The notes under the pieces were generated by a model. The model was not told the origin of the DNA. It was given only the letters and a program-made list of their open reading frames with translations, and made no database searches. Shown here piece by piece: positions 6,353 to 48,885 of a stretch of 48,885 nt of DNA (position 1 is the stretch's first letter; each line of letters starts with the position of its first letter). The stretch comes from a virus, in the IMG/VR virus record IMGVR_UViG_3300049825_000491, positions 1 through 48,885 of that record, one strand, 5' to 3'. The translations under genes and the position numbers were made by a program.

Positions 6353-6865
6353 TTAATGGTCAGTAATTCGATACGTTCGAGGCCCGAAGCGATAGTCGAA
6401 CTCTCGCGACATCTGGTCGTCGGCATTGATAAGATACAATCCGACCTGGAACATGGCGGAGGCTCCTTTTCCTTCCGGAGAGCAAAACTGGGTATATCCA
6501 TGGATTACTCTCGATCTGCTGGCAGCAGATATTAGGCGACGACACCATTCGACCCTAGGATCAAACTTTGCTAGCAGCAATACGGGGAATTCACTGCGCG
6601 CCGCCTTTTCTACCCACACAGGCATCGCCGAGAACGGAGGATTGACAAACGCAGGTAGACGCCAGTGCTGTTTTAGCCCGTCTTGCTGCTCGTCAAACTC
6701 TGCAATAGCTCCCGTCCTACCGCTGACTGGACCCACGCAGGGATCTAGGTACTCCTTCCCCAGAACAAACGGGAGGAGATCGATAATCCACTCCGGGGTT
6801 AGATGGGTATCGGTCCCACCATTTTTCGCCCCTTGCCGTCCCTGATGTAACTGCGCCACGCTCAT
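6353..6865 (-). CDS. Phage-type DNA N6-adenine methyltransferase
   Basis: A 170-aa protein of the small phage Dam class, which transfers a methyl group from S-adenosylmethionine to adenine. The N-terminus has the typical T-P-E-W-I-I-D-L-L start (about 23-31), LDPC (40-43) for cofactor binding, and the catalytic NPPF motif (75-78). The length matches the class. Target sequence cannot be read from the protein, but the genome is rich in GATC. A promoter of the early type lies just upstream, inside the end of the neighbouring cytosine methyltransferase gene, so the two methylases can be expressed separately. Confidence 0.87.
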   Translation of the reverse strand: MSVAQLHQGRQGAKNGGTDTHLTPEWIIDLLPFVLGKEYLDPCVGPVSGRTGAIAEFDEQQDGLKQHWRLPAFVNPPFSAMPVWVEKAARSEFPVLLLAKFDPRVEWCRRLISAASRSRVIHGYTQFCSPEGKGASAMFQVGLYLINADDQMSREFDYRFGPRTYRITDH

Positions 6866-6897: not shown

Positions 6898-6926
6898 ATA
6901 ATGGCTTCTCTTGATCAAGGCGTCAA
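6898..6926 (-). promoter_or_regulatory. Early-type promoter (TTGACG-17-CATTAT)
   Basis: On the minus strand TTGACG (6926-6921), 17 nt, CATTAT (6903-6898). It overlaps the 3' end of the cytosine methyltransferase gene and drives the adenine methyltransferase. Confidence 0.72.
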
Positions 6927-7919
6927 GAGGCTATCGCAGATCGCTTTCATCACGGGGGGCGAGACGCTATTGCCTATCCCTCTTATGTCGATCTTGATGT
7001 CTCCCGATAGTTGATAGCTGTCAGGAAACCCCTGCAGCCTAGCCATGCATCGACCGTCAAGAACGTAGAAGGTTTCTTTGTGCAAAATGTTCCAAAAATT
7101 AGATCTTCTTCCGCCTTTTAGATCGTCAGCCAGTGATGCCCTGATTGTTGGGGCGGGTTCGCAATCCGGAACCGCCCTAGGATGCTTGCCATAGTAGCCA
7201 ATCCGAGGAACTAGGTAGCTACCTAGTGGATCCACGAGATCGAGGGCAAGGAGTTGCCCCCTTGTGGGTTCACACGTTTTTAGCTGCGGAATTAGGTCTT
7301 CAATGGCGGAGAGCCATCCCTTTGGCTCGTGGGGCAATATGCTGATCTGAGGAGCTGTCTGTCCTAATGCGGATGCGATCAGAAACAGTCGCTCGCGATT
7401 TTGCGCTACTCCAAAATCCTTACTATTCAACACACGTTCCTGGATCGTGTATCCTAGGTTTTTGAGTAAATCCAGGAATTCGAGATAAACCGGAGCAGAT
7501 CTGTACGCGATCACATTTTCTAATATTGCAAATTCTGGCAGCAAGTCCGAGTACCAGTCGAATGTAGCCTTGAGCGCGTTCGCGTCGTCCGTCGATCCAT
7601 CCCTGTCCTTGTTCGCCAAGCTATATTGCTTGCAGCTTGGCGAGGACTGGATCACTAAGGGAGTCGATCTGCTTTTGTGCAGCAGGTACCGGCTTGACGC
7701 CACGGATTCGATATCCTGGACAATAAGTGTGCCGCCAAAATTGGATCTATATAGATCCGCAATTGGCTCGTCCCATTCGACCGCCAACGCCGGAGACATC
7801 CCGGCCTGCGACGCTCCTAACGTAGACCCTCCACACCCTGAGAAATGCGAAATCCATCCGTAGTTGCTCAATTTATTTACCACCTTGTTGTGAATATACC
7901 CACAAAACCAAACAATCAT
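6915..7919 (-). CDS. DNA (cytosine-5) methyltransferase
   Basis: A 334-aa C5-methyltransferase. Motif I FSGCGG (26-31) binds S-adenosylmethionine. The catalytic Cys96 lies in SPSCKQYS, a variant of the usual GPPCQ-FS. ENV (134-136) is motif VI, AQNRER (172-177) motif VIII, and GNSVSPP (316-322) motif X. All catalytic parts are present, so the enzyme is probably active. The target recognition region is roughly 190-290 and its specificity is unknown. ATG 7919 overlaps the stop of a 50-aa ORF (ATGA), supporting this start; a TTG at residue 17 with AAGGTGG upstream is an alternative. Likely role: self-protection against host restriction. Confidence 0.88.
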   Translation of the reverse strand: MIVWFCGYIHNKVVNKLSNYGWISHFSGCGGSTLGASQAGMSPALAVEWDEPIADLYRSNFGGTLIVQDIESVASSRYLLHKSRSTPLVIQSSPSCKQYSLANKDRDGSTDDANALKATFDWYSDLLPEFAILENVIAYRSAPVYLEFLDLLKNLGYTIQERVLNSKDFGVAQNRERLFLIASALGQTAPQISILPHEPKGWLSAIEDLIPQLKTCEPTRGQLLALDLVDPLGSYLVPRIGYYGKHPRAVPDCEPAPTIRASLADDLKGGRRSNFWNILHKETFYVLDGRCMARLQGFPDSYQLSGDIKIDIRGIGNSVSPPVMKAICDSLLTP

Positions 7920-23288: not shown

Positions 23289-23318
23289 TAGGGGGTAGAG
23301 CGATTGGAGATTACGGGC

Positions 23319-23918
23319 ATGCAATTCAGCGAAGTTTTTACCAAAGAAAAGTGCGGGAAACATTTACTTTGGCTGGTTAGCAACGGAGAGAAAGGAATCA
23401 GATTGGATCTGAACGATGCAGAGTTGAGTAATGCAGATCTGAGTTACGCAACCCTGAGTGACGCAGATCTGAGTAATGCGGATCTGAGTAATGCGGATCT
23501 GAGTTACGCGGATCTGAGTAATACAAACCTGAGTTATGCAAACCTGAGTTATGCAAACCTGAGGGAGGCAAACCTGAGTGAGGCAGATCTGAGCAATGCA
23601 GATCTGAGCAATGCAACTCTGGGTTATGCAAACCTGAGTGATGCAAACCTGAGTGATGCAGATCTGAGTGACGTAGATCTGGGATTCCTCCGGGTAGGTA
23701 ACAACAAAGAGCTTATCACCCTCCAGACTGGAGTATATCCAGCGGTGATCGCCAAAAACCTGGGAGTAGTTGCAATTGGCTGTCAGCAACATACGCTCAC
23801 GACGTGGGAGGGATTTACGGATGATGAGATCGACGAAATGGATAGCAAAGCCCTGGACTTCTGGAAGAACTGGAAGCATACGATCTTGAGTATTGCGAAA
23901 CACGGATCGCCTCAGTAA
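23319..23918 (+). CDS. Pentapeptide-repeat protein, 199 aa
   Basis: A short N-terminal helical part, then about 18 tandem pentapeptides of the A(D/N)LSx type (about residues 31-123), forming a right-handed quadrilateral beta helix, then a C-terminal domain (about 128-199) with [16 protein letters not shown] and IGCQQH. ATG 23319 is chosen for GGAG 9 nt upstream. It is a shorter paralogue of the 461-aa protein at 46431-47816, including the same promoter, leader and C-terminal domain. Some pentapeptide proteins mimic DNA and bind gyrase; function here is unknown. The sliding clamp gene follows on the same transcript. Confidence 0.88.
23400..23690 (+). repeat. 15-bp periodic repeat array in the pentapeptide gene
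   Basis: Tandem 15-bp units of the type GATCTGAGTRATGCA encode the pentapeptides. The DNA units are nearly identical, so the array can expand or contract by recombination or slippage. Confidence 0.85.
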
Positions 23919-30920: not shown

Positions 30921-31532
30921 ATGCAGCAATACACTTTCGACCAAAAATCAGGGAGATACCGAGATCAAAACGGGTTTGTCCCAAAGCGCAAGATCGAGGC
31001 GTTCAAGAAGCGCGTCCAAAAAAAAGCCATAGCGGACGTCAAGGCTTCCAGTCAAAAATATCAAGACAAAGAGATCGGTCTAGAGCAATTGCAGCGCGAC
31101 ATTAGGGACGCAATTCGACGCGGCACGGTCGCAATCGCAGGCATCGAGTCAGGAGGTGTCTCGACACAAAACCCAACAATGCTGTCAGTAGGGAGACATC
31201 TACAGGTCCAGTACAAATATCTAGATCTCGTCTTCAATGGCCATCGATCTGGCAAGGTTTCTGACGCGCAATTGGCTAATAGGCTTGTCCGATATGCCTT
31301 CGACACGTCGCAGGGTAGCGCAATCGCCATACATGACCGAAATCAGACCTACTGTTATCGATCACTTGCCGACTGCGAACATTGTCCTGAGTGCATAAGA
31401 TACCATGCGATGGGCGTCAAAACAAAAGGCGAACTCCCACCGCCGGGAGTTCGCTGCGCTTGCACCAGCCGATGTAAGTGCACTATTTATTATTTTGAGA
31501 CACTGGAAGCGGCCGTTAAGGCTAGAGGATAG
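30921..31532 (+). CDS. Minor head protein (SPP1 gp7/MuF-like)
   Basis: A 203-aa protein with an N-terminal YTFDQKSGRYRDQNG stretch typical of small phage minor head proteins, a helical middle, and a C-terminal Cys-rich domain: C-E-H-C-P-E-C (about 153-159), LPPPGVRCACTSRCKC (about 172-187), close to the zinc-binding tail of gp7-like proteins. It follows the portal, as usual, and such proteins enter the head with it. Its ATG coincides with a -10-like TACAAT, so it probably depends on an upstream promoter. Confidence 0.72.
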   Translation: MQQYTFDQKSGRYRDQNGFVPKRKIEAFKKRVQKKAIADVKASSQKYQDKEIGLEQLQRDIRDAIRRGTVAIAGIESGGVSTQNPTMLSVGRHLQVQYKYLDLVFNGHRSGKVSDAQLANRLVRYAFDTSQGSAIAIHDRNQTYCYRSLADCEHCPECIRYHAMGVKTKGELPPPGVRCACTSRCKCTIYYFETLEAAVKARG

Positions 31533-31693: not shown

Positions 31694-31888
31694 CTAAAAC
31701 TCCGTGAGGACATAATCCATGGGAGCTAGGCTCATGATCTTTTGCACCCACCCAGATGTAGGAGCATTGGCGATCGGGGTGTCATCTTCAGCCGGGGAAA
31801 TAACAACCCACTCCCAGGCCTCCGAGTAAATGCGATTCATCGCCGCGCTCAATTCTGCGTAACTCTGTTCTTTGCTGATAGCGATCAT
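31694..31888 (-). CDS. Hypothetical protein, 64 aa
   Basis: A small acidic, mainly helical protein (SYAELSAAMNRIYSEAWEW at 8-26). No family recognised. It follows a GATCGA-type promoter (31924-31952). Confidence 0.58.
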   Translation of the reverse strand: MIAISKEQSYAELSAAMNRIYSEAWEWVVISPAEDDTPIANAPTSGWVQKIMSLAPMDYVLTEF

Positions 31889-31923
31889 GGTTGTGTACCT
31901 GTTTTGTTTTGCTTGATGTATTT

Positions 31924-31952
31924 AGTATGCCCAGTTCCTTGATGGGTCGATC
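31924..31952 (-). promoter_or_regulatory. Second-type promoter (GATCGA-17-CATACT)
   Basis: On the minus strand GATCGA (31952-31947), 17 nt ending AACTGGG, CATACT (31929-31924), AAATAC. Part of a direct repeat with 32204-32256. Confidence 0.62.
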
Positions 31953-31954
31953 AT

Positions 31955-32176
31955 CTAGCTGAAAAGATTTTCGATTGCAAGCAGATCCGCGTCGGATAGT
32001 CGAGGAACAAAAAACATGTCCTCAACTGCGGCCCACTCTTGCTCTGAGGTCGGAACCTGCACTCCGAATACAGCCTCGGCTTCCTGGTATTTAGCGGCTT
32101 CTAATGCCGCTAATTTTGCGAAGGCGCGGGGGCACTGGCATTTGATGGCCAAATCGATTCCGTTTAAGTGGCTCAT
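31955..32176 (-). CDS. Hypothetical acidic protein, 73 aa, flanked by repeats
   Basis: Helical and acidic with SEQEW at about residues 44-48 and ENLFS at the end. No family recognised. Its promoter (32207-32235) and the sequence at its stop codon are copies of each other (CTTTTCAG..TAG..TGATCGA), so the gene looks like a cassette inserted or duplicated between repeats. Confidence 0.6.
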   Translation of the reverse strand: MSHLNGIDLAIKCQCPRAFAKLAALEAAKYQEAEAVFGVQVPTSEQEWAAVEDMFFVPRLSDADLLAIENLFS

Positions 32177-32206
32177 GATTAACTCCTCGGTTGCTTTGAT
32201 ATTTTT

Positions 32207-32235
32207 ATTATGCCCGACTTTTTGATGGATCGATC
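32207..32235 (-). promoter_or_regulatory. Second-type promoter (GATCGA-17-CATAAT)
   Basis: On the minus strand GATCGA (32235-32230), 17 nt, CATAAT (32212-32207). Drives the 73-aa gene. Confidence 0.62.
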
Positions 32236-32328
32236 AGCTAACTGAAAAGTTTATCGACATTCCCGCAAACAATATCATTGAACAGGATATTGTTTAGACA
32301 AAAATATCTTGTTGCAAAAATAATCCAA
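32236..32328 (-). pseudogene. 3' remnant of a small minus-strand gene
   Basis: A minus-strand frame about 30 codons long ends KLFS-stop, like the NLFS-stop of the neighbouring 73-aa gene, with the same sequence around the stop. It has no start codon before an in-frame stop, so only the tail of a lost gene seems to remain. The match is short and could be a promoter repeat only. Confidence 0.4.
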
Positions 32329-32340
32329 CGATGTTATTAT
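32312..32340 (+). promoter_or_regulatory. Promoter of the structured RNA (TTGCAA-17-TGTTATTAT)
   Basis: TTGCAA (32312-32317), 17 nt, TATTAT (32335-32340) with TGT extended -10. Expected start near 32347. Confidence 0.72.
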
Positions 32341-32346
32341 TAAGAG

Positions 32347-32866
32347 AGAGCAGGAGCGATACCAAAAAGTGCGTGAGACTCGTCACTTAGTTGGATTAAG
32401 TCACAGCCTGTCAGCCATAAGTTCTGAGAGTATACTCAGACAAGCCTCTAGGGATGCCGAGAAAGACGTATAAGTAAAGGCAAGGTCTGTGGGTCATTTA
32501 GGCGAATAAGCGCCTATACGGGCTATAAAATAGCCGGGTGTGATAGCCCACCTAGCGATAGGTCGTAATGCAAACGTAAAACCCATATCTGCATCCTGCA
32601 AAAGTCAAGGAACTAGAAGCGTACTAGCGCATCTTTTTGTAAAAAAAGAAAGGCTAGGCGCTTTTTGGGATTAGCATCTTGGAATTAAATAAATTAGATA
32701 CTAGATACTAGGTACTTGCAGGTTTTGGTCGCCGTAAGGCAATAGACCAAACAACGCCCGAGTTGATAAGGGCTCAGCACCCTGGTTGGAGAGGATAGCG
32801 GGACGTATAACCGAGGCCGCTTTGGGCGTCCCCGGTAACCACATTTCGTAAGGGAGTAGAGTAATC
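32347..32866 (+). ncRNA. Large structured non-coding RNA candidate (~520 nt), class unknown
   Basis: No protein-coding frame is supportable, but stems abound on the plus strand: ACTTA/TAAGT (32385-32401), TCTGAG/CTCAGA (32423-32440), TAGGCG/CGCCTA (32499-32516), GGCTA/TAGCC (32521-32535), ACCTA-GCGA-TAGGT with a GNRA loop (32550-32563), and TTGGTC..GCC-GTAA-GGC..GACCAA with another GNRA loop (32725-32750). A GGGACG/CGTCCC pair closes a later domain (about 32800-32832). AGCGC..GCGCTTTTT near 32626-32665 may be a terminator or a domain end. The RNA has its own promoter and ends at the lysin ribosome site. It may be a GOLLD/ROOL/HEARO-like RNA, a ribozyme, a packaging RNA or a lysin leader. Confidence 0.65.
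32695..32715. repeat. Three tandem 7-bp repeats (TAGATAC, TAGATAC, TAGGTAC)
   Basis: Two perfect and one near-perfect copies in an A+T-rich joint between the two halves of the RNA candidate. TTGGAA (32679-32684) lies 17 nt before a TAGATA, so a second weak promoter is possible. Confidence 0.6.
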
Positions 32867-32867
32867 G

Positions 32868-33404
32868 ATGGCATTGAATTTTGGATTGACACCGCAACTG
32901 ATCAAGCGAGTAATTCCACAGGCGGATCTAGTCGCGGTAAAAGCAAACTACCCACTACTGGTAATCGAGTTATCCCTCCAAGGGGGAAGACGTCAATCAG
33001 TCCTAAACGCATTGGCAACGATCTCAGTCGAATGTCCGTCATTTATCCCGCAACGAGAGTATGGCAGCGAGTCCTATTTCCGTGAGCAGTACGGAGACGC
33101 ACTAGGTAGGTACGTCGATGGATTCCCGGAGTATGCGGGAAGGGGCCTGATCCAGTTGTCGTGGTGGGCTAATTACAAAAGATATGGCGAACTGATAGGC
33201 GTCGATCTGGAGAAGATACCAGACCTCGCGTTAAATCCTCAAATCGCTTGCAGAATACTTGCTCAATTTTTTAAGCAAAATAGATTGCTTGACGAGATAG
33301 ATCCTCACGCCGTCCGACAGGTCGTCAACGGCGGAGTCAATGGACTGGATGATTTTCTTGATGCGTATCATCAGTTCGATAAATTAATGATCCGCAATGG
33401 GTAA
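32868..33404 (+). CDS. Endolysin, GH19 (chitinase/lysozyme-like) family
   Basis: A 178-aa single-domain peptidoglycan hydrolase. Glu55 in VECPSF is in the place of the GH19 catalytic acid (usually HETxxF) and Glu64 in REYGS that of the second catalytic Glu. GRGLIQLS (91-98) and NYKRYG (102-107) are the family's best-known signature, and the length fits. The His before Glu55 is replaced by Val, as happens in phage members. AAGGGAG lies upstream of the ATG. It overlaps the terminase gene by 8 nt and directly follows the structured RNA, which could control when it is made. Confidence 0.85.
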   Translation: MALNFGLTPQLIKRVIPQADLVAVKANYPLLVIELSLQGGRRQSVLNALATISVECPSFIPQREYGSESYFREQYGDALGRYVDGFPEYAGRGLIQLSWWANYKRYGELIGVDLEKIPDLALNPQIACRILAQFFKQNRLLDEIDPHAVRQVVNGGVNGLDDFLDAYHQFDKLMIRNG

Positions 33405-34995
33405 ATATTTCTGGGATATCGATCATAATATCGTTGGGTCCGAATGGGCCAAGTTGCAGTTACAGGACTGGGCGGTACCGTTTCCTGAGTACAAGGATCG
33501 TCCGGTCGAATTCCTCTTTGACAAGCTCAATTTTGTCTGCACAAAAGAGCAGGCAGATATCTGCAATTCGGTTCGCGACAATCGAGTCACCAATGTCCAA
33601 GCTTCTCACGGGGTAGGAAAAACCGCCATCTCTGCTAGGCTCGCCCTCTGGTATCTGTTTGCGGTTGGTGGTCAAGTTGTTACGACCGCGCCAACCTTCC
33701 GGCAGGTTAAAAACCTGATCTGGAAAGAGATTAGATCGACTCACTCTAGGTTCAGCCAGATTCTCGGCGGCACCTGCAACACCCTCGATTTGTTTGTCAA
33801 CCCGTCGGTATTTGCGATTGGATTCAGTAGCTCTGATCACAACACAGATGCGTTTCAGGGGATGCACGCGGATTACTTTTTGTTTATCCAGGATGAGGCG
33901 AACGGCATCAGCCCCCTAGTTGATGACGGTTTTATTTCCTGCGCTACCGGGGAAAACAATAGGATACTGCGAGTAGGTAATCCTGTCTGCCCCTACACGC
34001 CGTTTTACTACTCCTGTCAACAGTCATCCACTCGATTGTCCTGCTGGGGACATCCTAATGTTTCTTGGGCCTATCAGGTGGGTCCTGACGGAACCCATAG
34101 GCTCAAGCCTGACATAGCTGTTCAGATAATATCTCCTCAGGGGGATGTAAAGCCTCAGGACGAATGGCCAGCCGAGCTACCACGAGATCTTATTCCTGGA
34201 GCTGTTTCAATTTCCTGGATCGAAGGTATTCGCAAGTCCAGAGGAGAAGGCACTGCGTACTGGCTAGGCCGGGTCGAGGGGATTTTTCCGGTAGACTCGA
34301 CAGACTCGTTATTTCCGATAGCGACACTCCATAGGATTAGGGATAAATCCATTTCTAGTCGGTCCGAATTACTGGAGTTGCACAAAAACAAATCTTTATC
34401 GGTCGGCCTGGATTGCGGCGATGGAGGGGATGATTCGGCTATATCCATACTGCGCGGCCATTTGGTTGTCCATTGCGAACTACTCCCTACTGTTGGCGAC
34501 GGGTATGATGGTGATCGCCTGTCAGCCAGGACAAAAGAGCTACAGGCTGAGTATGGCGAGTTTGGAGCGGTCGCTTACGATGCGTCTGGCGTCGGTAGCT
34601 GGCTTGATGGTCCGCTCAAATCCTGGTTTAAGGGACGCGTTCATCGTATCAAGTGGGGCGAGGCCGCTAGTAAGAAGCAAGACTACGGGAATCTGAAGGC
34701 CGAACAATTTGACGAACTGGCCAAGCTCCTCAAGGGGGATGATTTCGAGGGCGGTTTCTTGTGCTCAGAAGAGTCATGGAATGCACTACTAAAAGAATTC
34801 GCGTCCATTACCAGAAGAGATGTTCGCGACGGCTCCAAGATGTATTTGGTTTCCAAGAAAGAGCTAAGAGAAAAGCTGGGCCACTCTCCTGACCTGCTCG
34901 ATTCGCTGGTCCTCGCTTACTCGATTCCGCTCGGCATTACTAGCGGGAAGGTTGGTTCTCGCGACTGGATAGCAGCAACTCGGAAGAGCAGATAG
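33397..34995 (+). CDS. terL: Terminase large subunit
   Basis: A 532-aa DNA packaging motor. ATPase half: ASHGVGKT (69-76) is Walker A, FLFIQDEAN (160-168) Walker B with catalytic Glu, and RVGNP (about 191-195) motif III/C. Nuclease half: VGLDCGDGGDD (335-345) with the first Asp of the RNase H-like site, VAYDAS (near 390) the second, and HSPDLLDSLVLAYS (about 499-512) the third, with the usual D-x-x-D-(A/S)-L pattern. No adjacent small-subunit gene is recognised. It is translationally coupled to the lysin. Confidence 0.92.
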   Translation: MGKYFWDIDHNIVGSEWAKLQLQDWAVPFPEYKDRPVEFLFDKLNFVCTKEQADICNSVRDNRVTNVQASHGVGKTAISARLALWYLFAVGGQVVTTAPTFRQVKNLIWKEIRSTHSRFSQILGGTCNTLDLFVNPSVFAIGFSSSDHNTDAFQGMHADYFLFIQDEANGISPLVDDGFISCATGENNRILRVGNPVCPYTPFYYSCQQSSTRLSCWGHPNVSWAYQVGPDGTHRLKPDIAVQIISPQGDVKPQDEWPAELPRDLIPGAVSISWIEGIRKSRGEGTAYWLGRVEGIFPVDSTDSLFPIATLHRIRDKSISSRSELLELHKNKSLSVGLDCGDGGDDSAISILRGHLVVHCELLPTVGDGYDGDRLSARTKELQAEYGEFGAVAYDASGVGSWLDGPLKSWFKGRVHRIKWGEAASKKQDYGNLKAEQFDELAKLLKGDDFEGGFLCSEESWNALLKEFASITRRDVRDGSKMYLVSKKELREKLGHSPDLLDSLVLAYSIPLGITSGKVGSRDWIAATRKSR

Positions 34996-46268: not shown

Positions 46269-46456
46269 CTTCTTTTGCTCAGAGTGCTGATAGTTTGCTT
46301 GGGTGGAATGTCGATCTTGATCGTGCCGTCCGGCTTCTTGATGGATAGGATCGATCCGTTTACTTCGATTTTCGCGGATCGCCGCTCGATAGCGATCCGT
46401 GCCTGTTCGCCGAGTTGCCTTGCTATCTCGTTAATGTTTATCAAAGCGATTGACAT
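46265..46456 (-). CDS. Hypothetical protein, 63 aa
   Basis: Helix at residues about 6-27, then two beta strands (KIEVNGSILSIKKPDGTIKIDI), a small alpha-beta build. ATG 46456 overlaps the pentapeptide gene by 26 nt and its TGA overlaps the peptidase ATG, so it is translated in the chain. No family recognised. Confidence 0.6.
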   Translation of the reverse strand: MSIALININEIARQLGEQARIAIERRSAKIEVNGSILSIKKPDGTIKIDIPPKQTISTLSKRR

Positions 46457-47816
46457 GCCTCGCAATATTTAGGATCGTGATTTTCCAGTCTCTCCAGAAA
46501 TTTAAAGCGTCTCCGTGCATCTCGCCGATCACTTCGTCCGAGAAATTCTCCCAATCGGCAATAGTGTGTTGCTGACATCCGATTGCGATTACTCCCAGAT
46601 CTCGAAGGATGGCGACTGGATAGACTCCCGTTTGGATGGTTAAGATCTCTCGGTCGTTGCCAGCGGAAAGAAAGGTTAGATCTGCGCCACTCAGATCTGC
46701 GCCACTCAGATCGGCACCACTCAGATCTGCATTACTCAGATCTGCATCTCTCAGGACTGCGTTTCTCAGAGCCACGTTGCTCAGATCTGCATTACCAAGA
46801 TCCGCCTCGCTCAGGTCTGCATCGCTAAGATCTGCGTTACTCAGATCTGCATTGCCCAGAGTTGCGCCACTTAGATCTGCATGACTTAGGATTGCATTGC
46901 TCAGGCCTGAGTTACTCAGATCTGCACCACTCAGATCTGCACCACTCAGATCGGCATAACTCAGGACTGTGCCACTCAAAACTGCATTACTCAGATCTGC
47001 ATCTCTCAGGACTGCGCCACTTAGAGCTGAGTTACTCAGATCTGCACCACTCAGATCTGCACCACTCAGATCGGCACCACTCAGGACTGTGCCACTCAAA
47101 ACTGCATTACGCAGATCCGCTTTTGTCAGGACTGCGCCACTTAGAACTGAGTTGCGCAGATCTGCATAGTTCAGGCCTGCGTTACTCAGATCCGCGTTGC
47201 TCAGATCCGTGTTTCTTAGGACTGCATTCCTTAGGATTGAATTGCTCAGGACTGCACCACTCAGATCGGCACCACTCAGATCGGCACCACTCAGATCTGC
47301 ATAACTTAGGATTGCACCACTCAAAACTGCATTACGCAGATCCGCTTTTGTCAGAACTGCATTACTAAGATCTGCCTCGCTCAGGTCTGCATAGTTCAGC
47401 GCTGCATTACCCAGATCCGCGTTACTCAGATCCGTGTTTCTTAGGACTGCATTCCTTAGGATTGAATTGCTCAGGACTGCACCACTCAGATCGGCATGGC
47501 TCAGATCTGCGTCGCTTAGGTCTGCATCACTTAGGTCTGAGCCACTCAAAACTGCATTACGCAGATCCGCTTTTGTCAGAACTGCATCACTTAGAGCTGA
47601 GTAACGCAGGTCTGCATAGTTCAGCGCTGCATTACCCAGATCCGCGCTGCTCAGTCTTGCACCACTTAGATCGGCATGGCTCAGATCTGCATCGCTTAGG
47701 TCTGAGCCACTTAGGTCCGTGTTTCTCAGGACTAACCCACCCCCTTGGGTGTGGGTGCTCAACCGGCGTAAGTGGCTCTCATACTTCTCTTTTGTGAAAT
47801 CCGTACTGAACTGCAT
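46431..47816 (-). CDS. Large pentapeptide-repeat protein, 461 aa
   Basis: Residues about 25-390 are about 70 tandem pentapeptides of type A(D/V)LSx, which form a long, negatively charged beta helix, about as long as 18 turns. A C-terminal domain (about 392-461) with TIQTGVYPVAILRDLG and IGCQQH, then FWRDWKITI, is shared with the shorter paralogue at 23319-23918. ATG 47816 is chosen for GGAG 9 nt upstream, as in the paralogue. Early-type promoter at 47847. Such helices can mimic B-DNA and inhibit gyrase or restriction enzymes; that role is unproven here. The repetitive DNA makes copy number prone to change. Confidence 0.9.
   Translation of the reverse strand: MQFSTDFTKEKYESHLRRLSTHTQGGGLVLRNTDLSGSDLSDADLSHADLSGARLSSADLGNAALNYADLRYSALSDAVLTKADLRNAVLSGSDLSDADLSDADLSHADLSGAVLSNSILRNAVLRNTDLSNADLGNAALNYADLSEADLSNAVLTKADLRNAVLSGAILSYADLSGADLSGADLSGAVLSNSILRNAVLRNTDLSNADLSNAGLNYADLRNSVLSGAVLTKADLRNAVLSGTVLSGADLSGADLSGADLSNSALSGAVLRDADLSNAVLSGTVLSYADLSGADLSGADLSNSGLSNAILSHADLSGATLGNADLSNADLSDADLSEADLGNADLSNVALRNAVLRDADLSNADLSGADLSGADLSGADLTFLSAGNDREILTIQTGVYPVAILRDLGVIAIGCQQHTIADWENFSDEVIGEMHGDALNFWRDWKITILNIARHVNRFDKH
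46675..47770 (-). repeat. 15-bp periodic repeat array in the large pentapeptide gene
   Basis: Tandem 15-bp units such as (minus strand) GATCTGAGTGGTGCA, with longer higher-order copies: blocks beginning near 46981, 47101, 47332 and 47560 share 30-60 bp of near identity. This suggests repeat growth by unequal exchange. Confidence 0.85.
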
Positions 47817-47846
47817 TTTCGTAATCTCCAATCGCTCTACCCCTTA

Positions 47847-48141: not shown

Positions 48142-48885
48142 CAAACGTCTCCTAGGTAGATTGTGGATAAACTTGTGGGGTAAAGATTGATCAGTCCTTT
48201 ATTGTTGGACGCGTTCCCGAGTGTCTGATGCAGGGTTGGTTGCAATTCAATCTGTTCTGCCGGGATTGTTGCCAGATCTCCGGTTATTAGCGCGGTTGCG
48301 GTGATCGCCGTAGTGTAAAGCGCTCTGCGATATTCGACGCCAGACCCCGCCGAGGTCAGTGCAGTCCGACAAAAAGGGAGAACAGAGAGCGTGGGCCAGG
48401 AGGCTAGGTTGGACTCGATAGACTCTCCTAGCGCGGTTGACTCGTAGATAGCAAAGGACTCGACGTTGGGCGAGTAGGTAGGCAGGTGATCGGATACCAC
48501 GACGCAGGTTGCGTCATAGGCGATACCAGGCTGTACATCCTTCTCCCGGCGGGGGTGAATGCTCCCAATTCTGGTTACAGCATCGCTTGAGCCTCCCAAG
48601 AAATGAGGGTAGATCGAATACACCTGAAAATAGGTTGTCCTGTCTGGCACGGAGAGCGAAACCCCGCGATACGGGCAACCGGAGCCACCTCCTGATGGGG
48701 CAATGTTCCTAGGCATGGGCAACCCCCAGCAGTTCAGCCTAGACGTATTTGTGCTGCTAGAAAACTCGGGAGAGGCGAGACGCCTAACAGGGAATGGCCT
48801 GCTGAGGTAGTTAACTGTTGGCTCTTTTTCGATTAACGTGTTTAACTTAGTGGCCCCAAATCGATCAATGGGCACGTTGATCGTC
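48141..48885 (-). CDS. C-terminal part of the 637-aa unknown protein (bases beyond 48615 repeat the window start)
   Basis: The last 158 codons (48615-48141) complete the gene that starts at 1439. The part between 48616 and 48885 is the second copy of positions 1-270; two differences change Gly to Ser and Thr to Ala in the protein. The C-terminal part is Ser/Thr/Ala-rich, beta-prone, and ends YLGDV. It is coupled to the holin-like gene that follows. Confidence 0.85.
   Translation of the reverse strand, partial: TINVPIDRFGATKLNTLIEKEPTVNYLSRPFPVRRLASPEFSSSTNTSRLNCWGLPMPRNIAPSGGGSGCPYRGVSLSVPDRTTYFQVYSIYPHFLGGSSDAVTRIGSIHPRREKDVQPGIAYDATCVVVSDHLPTYSPNVESFAIYESTALGESIESNLASWPTLSVLPFCRTALTSAGSGVEYRRALYTTAITATALITGDLATIPAEQIELQPTLHQTLGNASNNKGLINLYPTSLSTIYLGDV
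48616..48885. repeat. Terminal redundancy of a circular genome (right copy)
   Basis: Second copy of bases 1-270 with differences at 48701 and 48758. Removing one copy gives a circle of about 48,615 bp. Confidence 0.93.

Follow-up and report, generated by a model that had tools for sequence, protein, structure and literature searches.

The window analyzed here, meaning the whole stretch of DNA examined, corresponds to one virus record of IMG/VR and has 48,885 bp. Its two ends overlap (1 to 270 against 48616 to 48885, with 268 of 270 positions identical), so that the genome is effectively complete at ∼48.6 kb, and the two mismatches in the overlap suggest population variants. Protein matches point to a cyanobacterium as the host: the portal matches Synechococcus phage S-CBS4, the product of the ORF at 30921 to 31532 matches the same phage and also Cylindrospermopsis phages, and the product of 42805 to 45249 matches Nodularia phages. 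The cyanobacterial palindrome GCGATCGC is present in 6 copies in the window against 0.8 expected. GATC occurs 511 times, ∼2.7-fold the expectation from length alone, and two DNA methyltransferase-like proteins are encoded on the minus strand (6353 to 6865 and 6915 to 7919). Also on the minus strand is the gene for a large pentapeptide-repeat protein (46431 to 47831; Pfam Pentapeptide, E of 2.1e-104), several PHROGs of which are matched by a second, smaller protein encoded at a distant position on the plus strand (23304 to 23918).

The region of interest precedes a block of plus-strand genes encoding a lysin, the terminase large subunit, a 2593-aa protein of tape-measure size with no family match and a further 814-aa protein (Table 1). 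No small terminase subunit was recognized near the large subunit, between 30000 and 35000. A related terminase gene in one cyanobacterial prophage is directly preceded by a 160-aa ORF that, judging by this position, is probably the small subunit.

An interval of ∼690 nt, 32177 to 32867, separates a minus-strand ORF, which starts at 32176, from the start codon of the lysin gene (32868); it is bounded by complete genes with no interrupted gene on either side. It has no credible coding frame, the longest being 67 aa and stops being scattered in all six frames, and it is the sole gap of at least 200 nt when the window is crudely tiled with ORFs. The preliminary description had reported a stretch without a gene at 32347 to 32866, just before the lysin and terminase genes, and both the absence of a frame and the position (lysin ATG at 32868, terminase at 33397) bear this out. 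Around the other end of the interval, a block of ∼60 to 75 bp is duplicated (31905 to 31980 and 32187 to 32262) upstream of the small minus-strand ORFs at 31694 to 31888 and 31955 to 32176, and is probably a repeated promoter.

Table 1. Features of the non-coding region and of the genes that follow it (positions are those of the window; structural features of the RNA are predicted)
Feature	Position	Strand	Remarks
Perfect 10-bp inverted repeat AAACAATATC-9-GATATTGTTT	32267..32295		Between divergent minus-strand genes and plus-strand promoter
Sigma70-like promoter TTGCAA-17-TATTAT	32312..32340	+
5' segment of putative transcript	32347..32411	+	Short hairpins, low to moderate probability
Compact 377-nt domain	32412..32788	+	Closed by long-range 6-bp helix 32412-32417/32783-32788
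Perfect 6-bp hairpin TCTGAG-AGTATA-CTCAGA	32423..32440	+	p 0.94
Perfect 6-bp hairpin TAGGCG-AATAAG-CGCCTA	32499..32516	+	p 0.98
Perfect 6-bp hairpin GGCTAT-AAA-ATAGCC	32521..32535	+	p 0.95
5-bp hairpin with GCGA (GNRA) tetraloop	32550..32563	+	p 0.89
Long composite hairpin (7+5+7 bp) with GUAA (GNRA) cap	32616..32664	+
A/U-rich linker with three tandem 7-bp repeats TAGATAC/TAGATAC/TAGGTAC	32684..32717	+	Repeats at ∼32697-32717
10-bp hairpin with AAUA bulge and GUAA (GNRA) tetraloop	32724..32751	+	p 0.93-1.0
3' hairpin GGACGT.../...GCGTCC	32793..32840	+	p 0.73-0.94
Shine-Dalgarno region of lysin gene, CGTAAGGGAG	32847..32867	+
GH19-like endolysin gene	32868..33404	+	phrog_181, E 5.8e-23; directly downstream
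Terminase large subunit gene	33397..34995	+	phrog_2, E 1.5e-23

The region is a real non-coding, hairpin-rich stretch whose sense strand bears GNRA loops. We counted six perfect hairpins of at least 5 bp that do not overlap, in agreement with the six or more perfect stems reported before, against 2.2 ± 1.4 in dinucleotide shuffles, where this number was reached in 6 of 300. Perfect hairpins of at least 6 bp number 4 against 0.6 in shuffles (reached in 0 of 300), although this count is not unique to the region since 13 of 373 genome windows equal it. Where two GNRA tetraloops had been noted, we found three (GCGA at 32555 to 32558, GUAA at 32639 to 32642 and GUAA at 32734 to 32737), with 0.3 in shuffles (1 of 300). 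They account for 3 of the 10 tetraloop stems on the plus strand, which is the sense strand of the lysin and terminase genes, and none of those on the minus strand is GNRA; two GNRA loops on stems of at least 5 bp are found only in genome windows that overlap the region. The tandem 7-bp repeats of the preliminary description are also present, in a linker whose first part (32684 to 32700) is predicted to be mostly unpaired. The enrichment of A at unpaired positions is the same as in shuffles.

Folding of the full 528 nt is moderate compared to shuffles (z = −2.68, antisense z = −2.84). When the genome was tiled in 260-nt windows, the 5' half ranked 3rd of 187 on each strand, with some coding windows equal or better, and folding energy alone is therefore suggestive rather than decisive. 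The predicted structure centers on the compact domain of Table 1, inside which an 11-bp helix (32536-32549/32770-32782) would span 247 nt and a 6-bp helix (32595-32600/32717-32722) 128 nt, with pair probabilities of 0.6 to 0.98 for most helices. This domain has a z of −4.26 (a stability reached by 0 of 120 shuffles; antisense z = −3.82) and ranks first of 101 same-length genome windows, both values being biased upward because its ends, 32412 and 32788, were chosen from the fold. The length of ∼520 nt originally given for the RNA was not retained, since the compact fold is confined to this domain and no terminator was found before the lysin gene. A structured RNA is the most economical reading of the excess of hairpins, the sense-only GNRA loops and the stable domain closed by a long-range helix; to that extent the initial proposal stands, while the only moderate z of the whole region and the lack of a homologue weigh against it.

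Upstream of the domain, the inverted repeat at 32267 to 32295 looks like the operator of some regulator. The TTGCAA-17-TATTAT promoter named in the preliminary description is present, but it is one of four promoter-like sites in 801 nt where 1.3 are expected by chance from shuffles, making it weak on its own, and an alternative overlapping site just upstream (TAGACA-18-AATAAT, 32295 to 32324) scores better (10/12). At the other end, a sequence scan revealed no terminator-like site between the predicted RNA domain and the lysin gene.

We searched for relatives of the region using nhmmer, blastn, covariance models and patterns, and no homologue was found across phages, plasmids, 386 cyanobacterial genomes and IMG/VR, collections from which near-identical records were possibly left out; the gathering of homologues by nhmmer that had been proposed thus yielded none. 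By blastn there was no similar DNA among 50,697 phage and 72,556 plasmid records, and matches in the 386 cyanobacterial genomes were all either short and A/T-rich or attributable to chance. Four pattern scans of IMG/VR with 15- to 16-mers returned no extended match, and those matches examined closely lay in coding sequence. A covariance model of 32420 to 32564 matched strongly only itself among the related loci fetched, and its two weak matches in the 386 cyanobacterial genomes (E of 0.004 and 0.03 per genome) are at chance level. The segment 32427 to 32450 matches the ribonucleotide reductase gene of S-CBS4-like cyanophages at 22 of 24 bases (E of 0.012; L085:914-937), probably by chance, as the match falls in a conserved coding motif, PQTSLYYS, that occurs once per homologous gene.

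The closest terminases found are ∼40% identical and belong to two cyanobacterial genomes (39 to 41%) and a set of IMG/VR contigs. A terminase-seeded profile scan of IMG/VR gave 80 loci, the closest ∼40 of them at 35 to 42% identity and none with the lysin or the RNA, and a family alignment of the ORF at 30921 to 31532 led to 80 loci at ∼30% identity, again none with the RNA region. Likewise, no homologue of the region was seen in 45 virus records searched over their full length and linked to this phage by their terminase or head protein, and the terminase and lysin used as single-protein baits in IMG/VR recovered no relative. Lysin homologues in cyanobacterial genomes look like host enzymes, being mostly contained in longer open frames (241 to 763 codons), and the RNA region is absent from ten short lysin-homologue loci in these genomes. 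The segment comprising lysin and leader appears peculiar to this phage lineage, given its absence from the related loci. Among related IMG/VR phages, a conserved 258-nt non-coding gap is observed shortly upstream of the terminase (∼4318 to 4575 in L116 and related loci).

Comparison with Rfam covariance models placed the region in no family, either at the gathering score over the whole window or relevantly at E ≤ 5 over 32150 to 32950; weak matches to the plastid psbA 3'UTR and mir-338 are on the opposite strand and at chance level. We consider the region to be probably an orphan structured RNA leader, outside every recognizable family. More specifically, the reading that we favor, tentatively and at slightly under an even chance, is that it forms the structured leader of the lysin-terminase-tape-measure transcript and possibly also a stable RNA of its own. 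The sequence has the features of a late-operon leader, with a promoter-like site upstream, the strand of the operon and no terminator before the first gene. Further support comes from its being the only gap of at least 200 nt, from the excess of hairpins and GNRA loops, from the z of the domain (−4.26) and from the Shine-Dalgarno sequence and ATG downstream. The leader reading is weakened by the lack of a homologue, by an antisense z of −3.82, by the 260-nt coding windows that fold as well or better, and by the terminase relatives at ∼40% identity, which have no similar region near the terminase.

We infer the transcription, the cis action and the regulatory role of such a leader alike from the arrangement and predicted fold of the locus. 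Transcription of the plus strand would start near 32331 to 32347, and the RNA would fold into the 377-nt multibranched domain, in which a long-range helix connects two predicted, nested six-way junctions and three arms are capped by GNRA loops. With no terminator in between, the transcript would then continue as the lysin-terminase-tape-measure mRNA. Action in cis is the most likely, the leader setting the timing or the level of expression of the lysis, packaging and tail operon, possibly through recruitment of a factor for anti-termination or RNA stability, or through a delay before ribosomes gain access; a processed, stable form of the RNA may exist too. The leader RNAs of phage late operons, such as lambda 6S/qut and HK022 put, have a classical length of ∼70 to 200 nt. 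The cyanophage RNA resembles them in being non-coding and in its place after a promoter and ahead of a late lysis, packaging and tail operon, but it is much longer and more branched, and this phage has no identified anti-terminator protein.

GOLLD (RF01998) and ROOL (RF03087) RNAs are characterized by homo-oligomeric cages, which kissing loops and A-minor contacts hold together, and they are commonly, though not universally, found close to tRNA genes. A trans-acting, stable and ornate RNA of this kind, possibly self-assembling and merely located upstream of the lysin gene, is in our view an unlikely identity for the region. GOLLD and ROOL are large structured phage RNAs in which structured regions are combined with a flexible linker, disordered in the case of ROOL, and the level of GOLLD rises at lysis (PMC12286853). 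The cyanophage RNA is likewise phage-borne, large and non-coding, with ∼380 to 520 nt, GNRA-capped arms and two structured halves separated by an A/U-rich, variable-looking linker. However, it shows no covariance-model similarity to either family at the gathering score or at E ≤ 5, contrary to the GOLLD or ROOL identity first put forward; ARAGORN detects neither single tRNA genes nor a tRNA island in the window; the unpaired segments offer no Watson-Crick loop-loop pairing of at least 5 nt; the RNA has no 3' terminator of its own and is placed as a lysin leader; and it is shorter than the many GOLLD members that exceed 800 nt. The phi29-type packaging RNA, also suggested initially, is not supported, the Phage_pRNA model giving no match at the gathering score or at E ≤ 5. 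Here too the RNA is carried by a phage whose genome encodes a packaging ATPase, with no small terminase gene recognized, but the cyanophage has a full-length phrog_2-type terminase large subunit and not the phi29 gp16 system.

The main rival that does not involve RNA is a DNA element, in which a terminase cos/pac site would be combined with control of a late promoter, the repeats binding proteins and the RNA fold being a by-product; we judge this rather improbable. In tailed phages, cos and pac sites lie beside the terminase genes in repeat-bearing non-coding DNA, and the region is similarly non-coding, adjoins packaging genes and bears both inverted repeats and the tandem 7-bp repeat. The two strands of the region hardly differ in excess folding energy, and several relatives have a gap of 210 to 260 nt upstream of their terminase genes. 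Against a DNA site are the concentration of GNRA loops on one strand, hairpins with loops of 3 to 8 nt, which are atypical of spaced operator repeats, and the predicted foldable domain closed by a long-range helix. The contig ends (1 to 270 and 48616 to 48885) lie away from the candidate cos/pac region at 32.2 to 32.9 kb.

It is distinctly improbable that the region is an unconstrained spacer or a decayed insert whose moderate folding arose by chance and was noticed because it was looked at. The whole-region z of only −2.7, the genome windows that match its count of longer hairpins (13 of 373) and the conservation found nowhere in the searches made would all fit such a spacer, whereas the region stands out by each of several measures that are in part independent, and a 690-nt spacer would be rare in a phage with no other gap above 200 nt. 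A diverged mobile or catalytic RNA (group I or II intron, HEARO/IscB-type guide RNA, CRISPR or transposon RNA), for which the ornate fold and GNRA loops might speak, is hardly credible: neither the intron nor the HEARO (RF02033) identity raised earlier has a model match at E ≤ 5, the neighbors are lysin, terminase and small unknown genes with no IscB/IsrB ORF, the region lies between complete genes, and, as the preliminary description had observed, no intron-flanked exon or nuclease ORF adjoins it, the adjoining genes searched also lacking a maturase or RT.

To our knowledge, few large structured phage RNAs have been described, and most of these have no assigned function. There is some chance, which we put as low, that the region is the first member of a class of large structured phage RNAs distinct from GOLLD, ROOL, OLE and HEARO, produced at the time of lysis or packaging and with a role in packaging itself or in lysis timing. 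If real, the structure would be an orphan large structured RNA in a cyanophage, and from its place directly ahead of the lysin and terminase genes a part in packaging or in the timing of lysis can be proposed.
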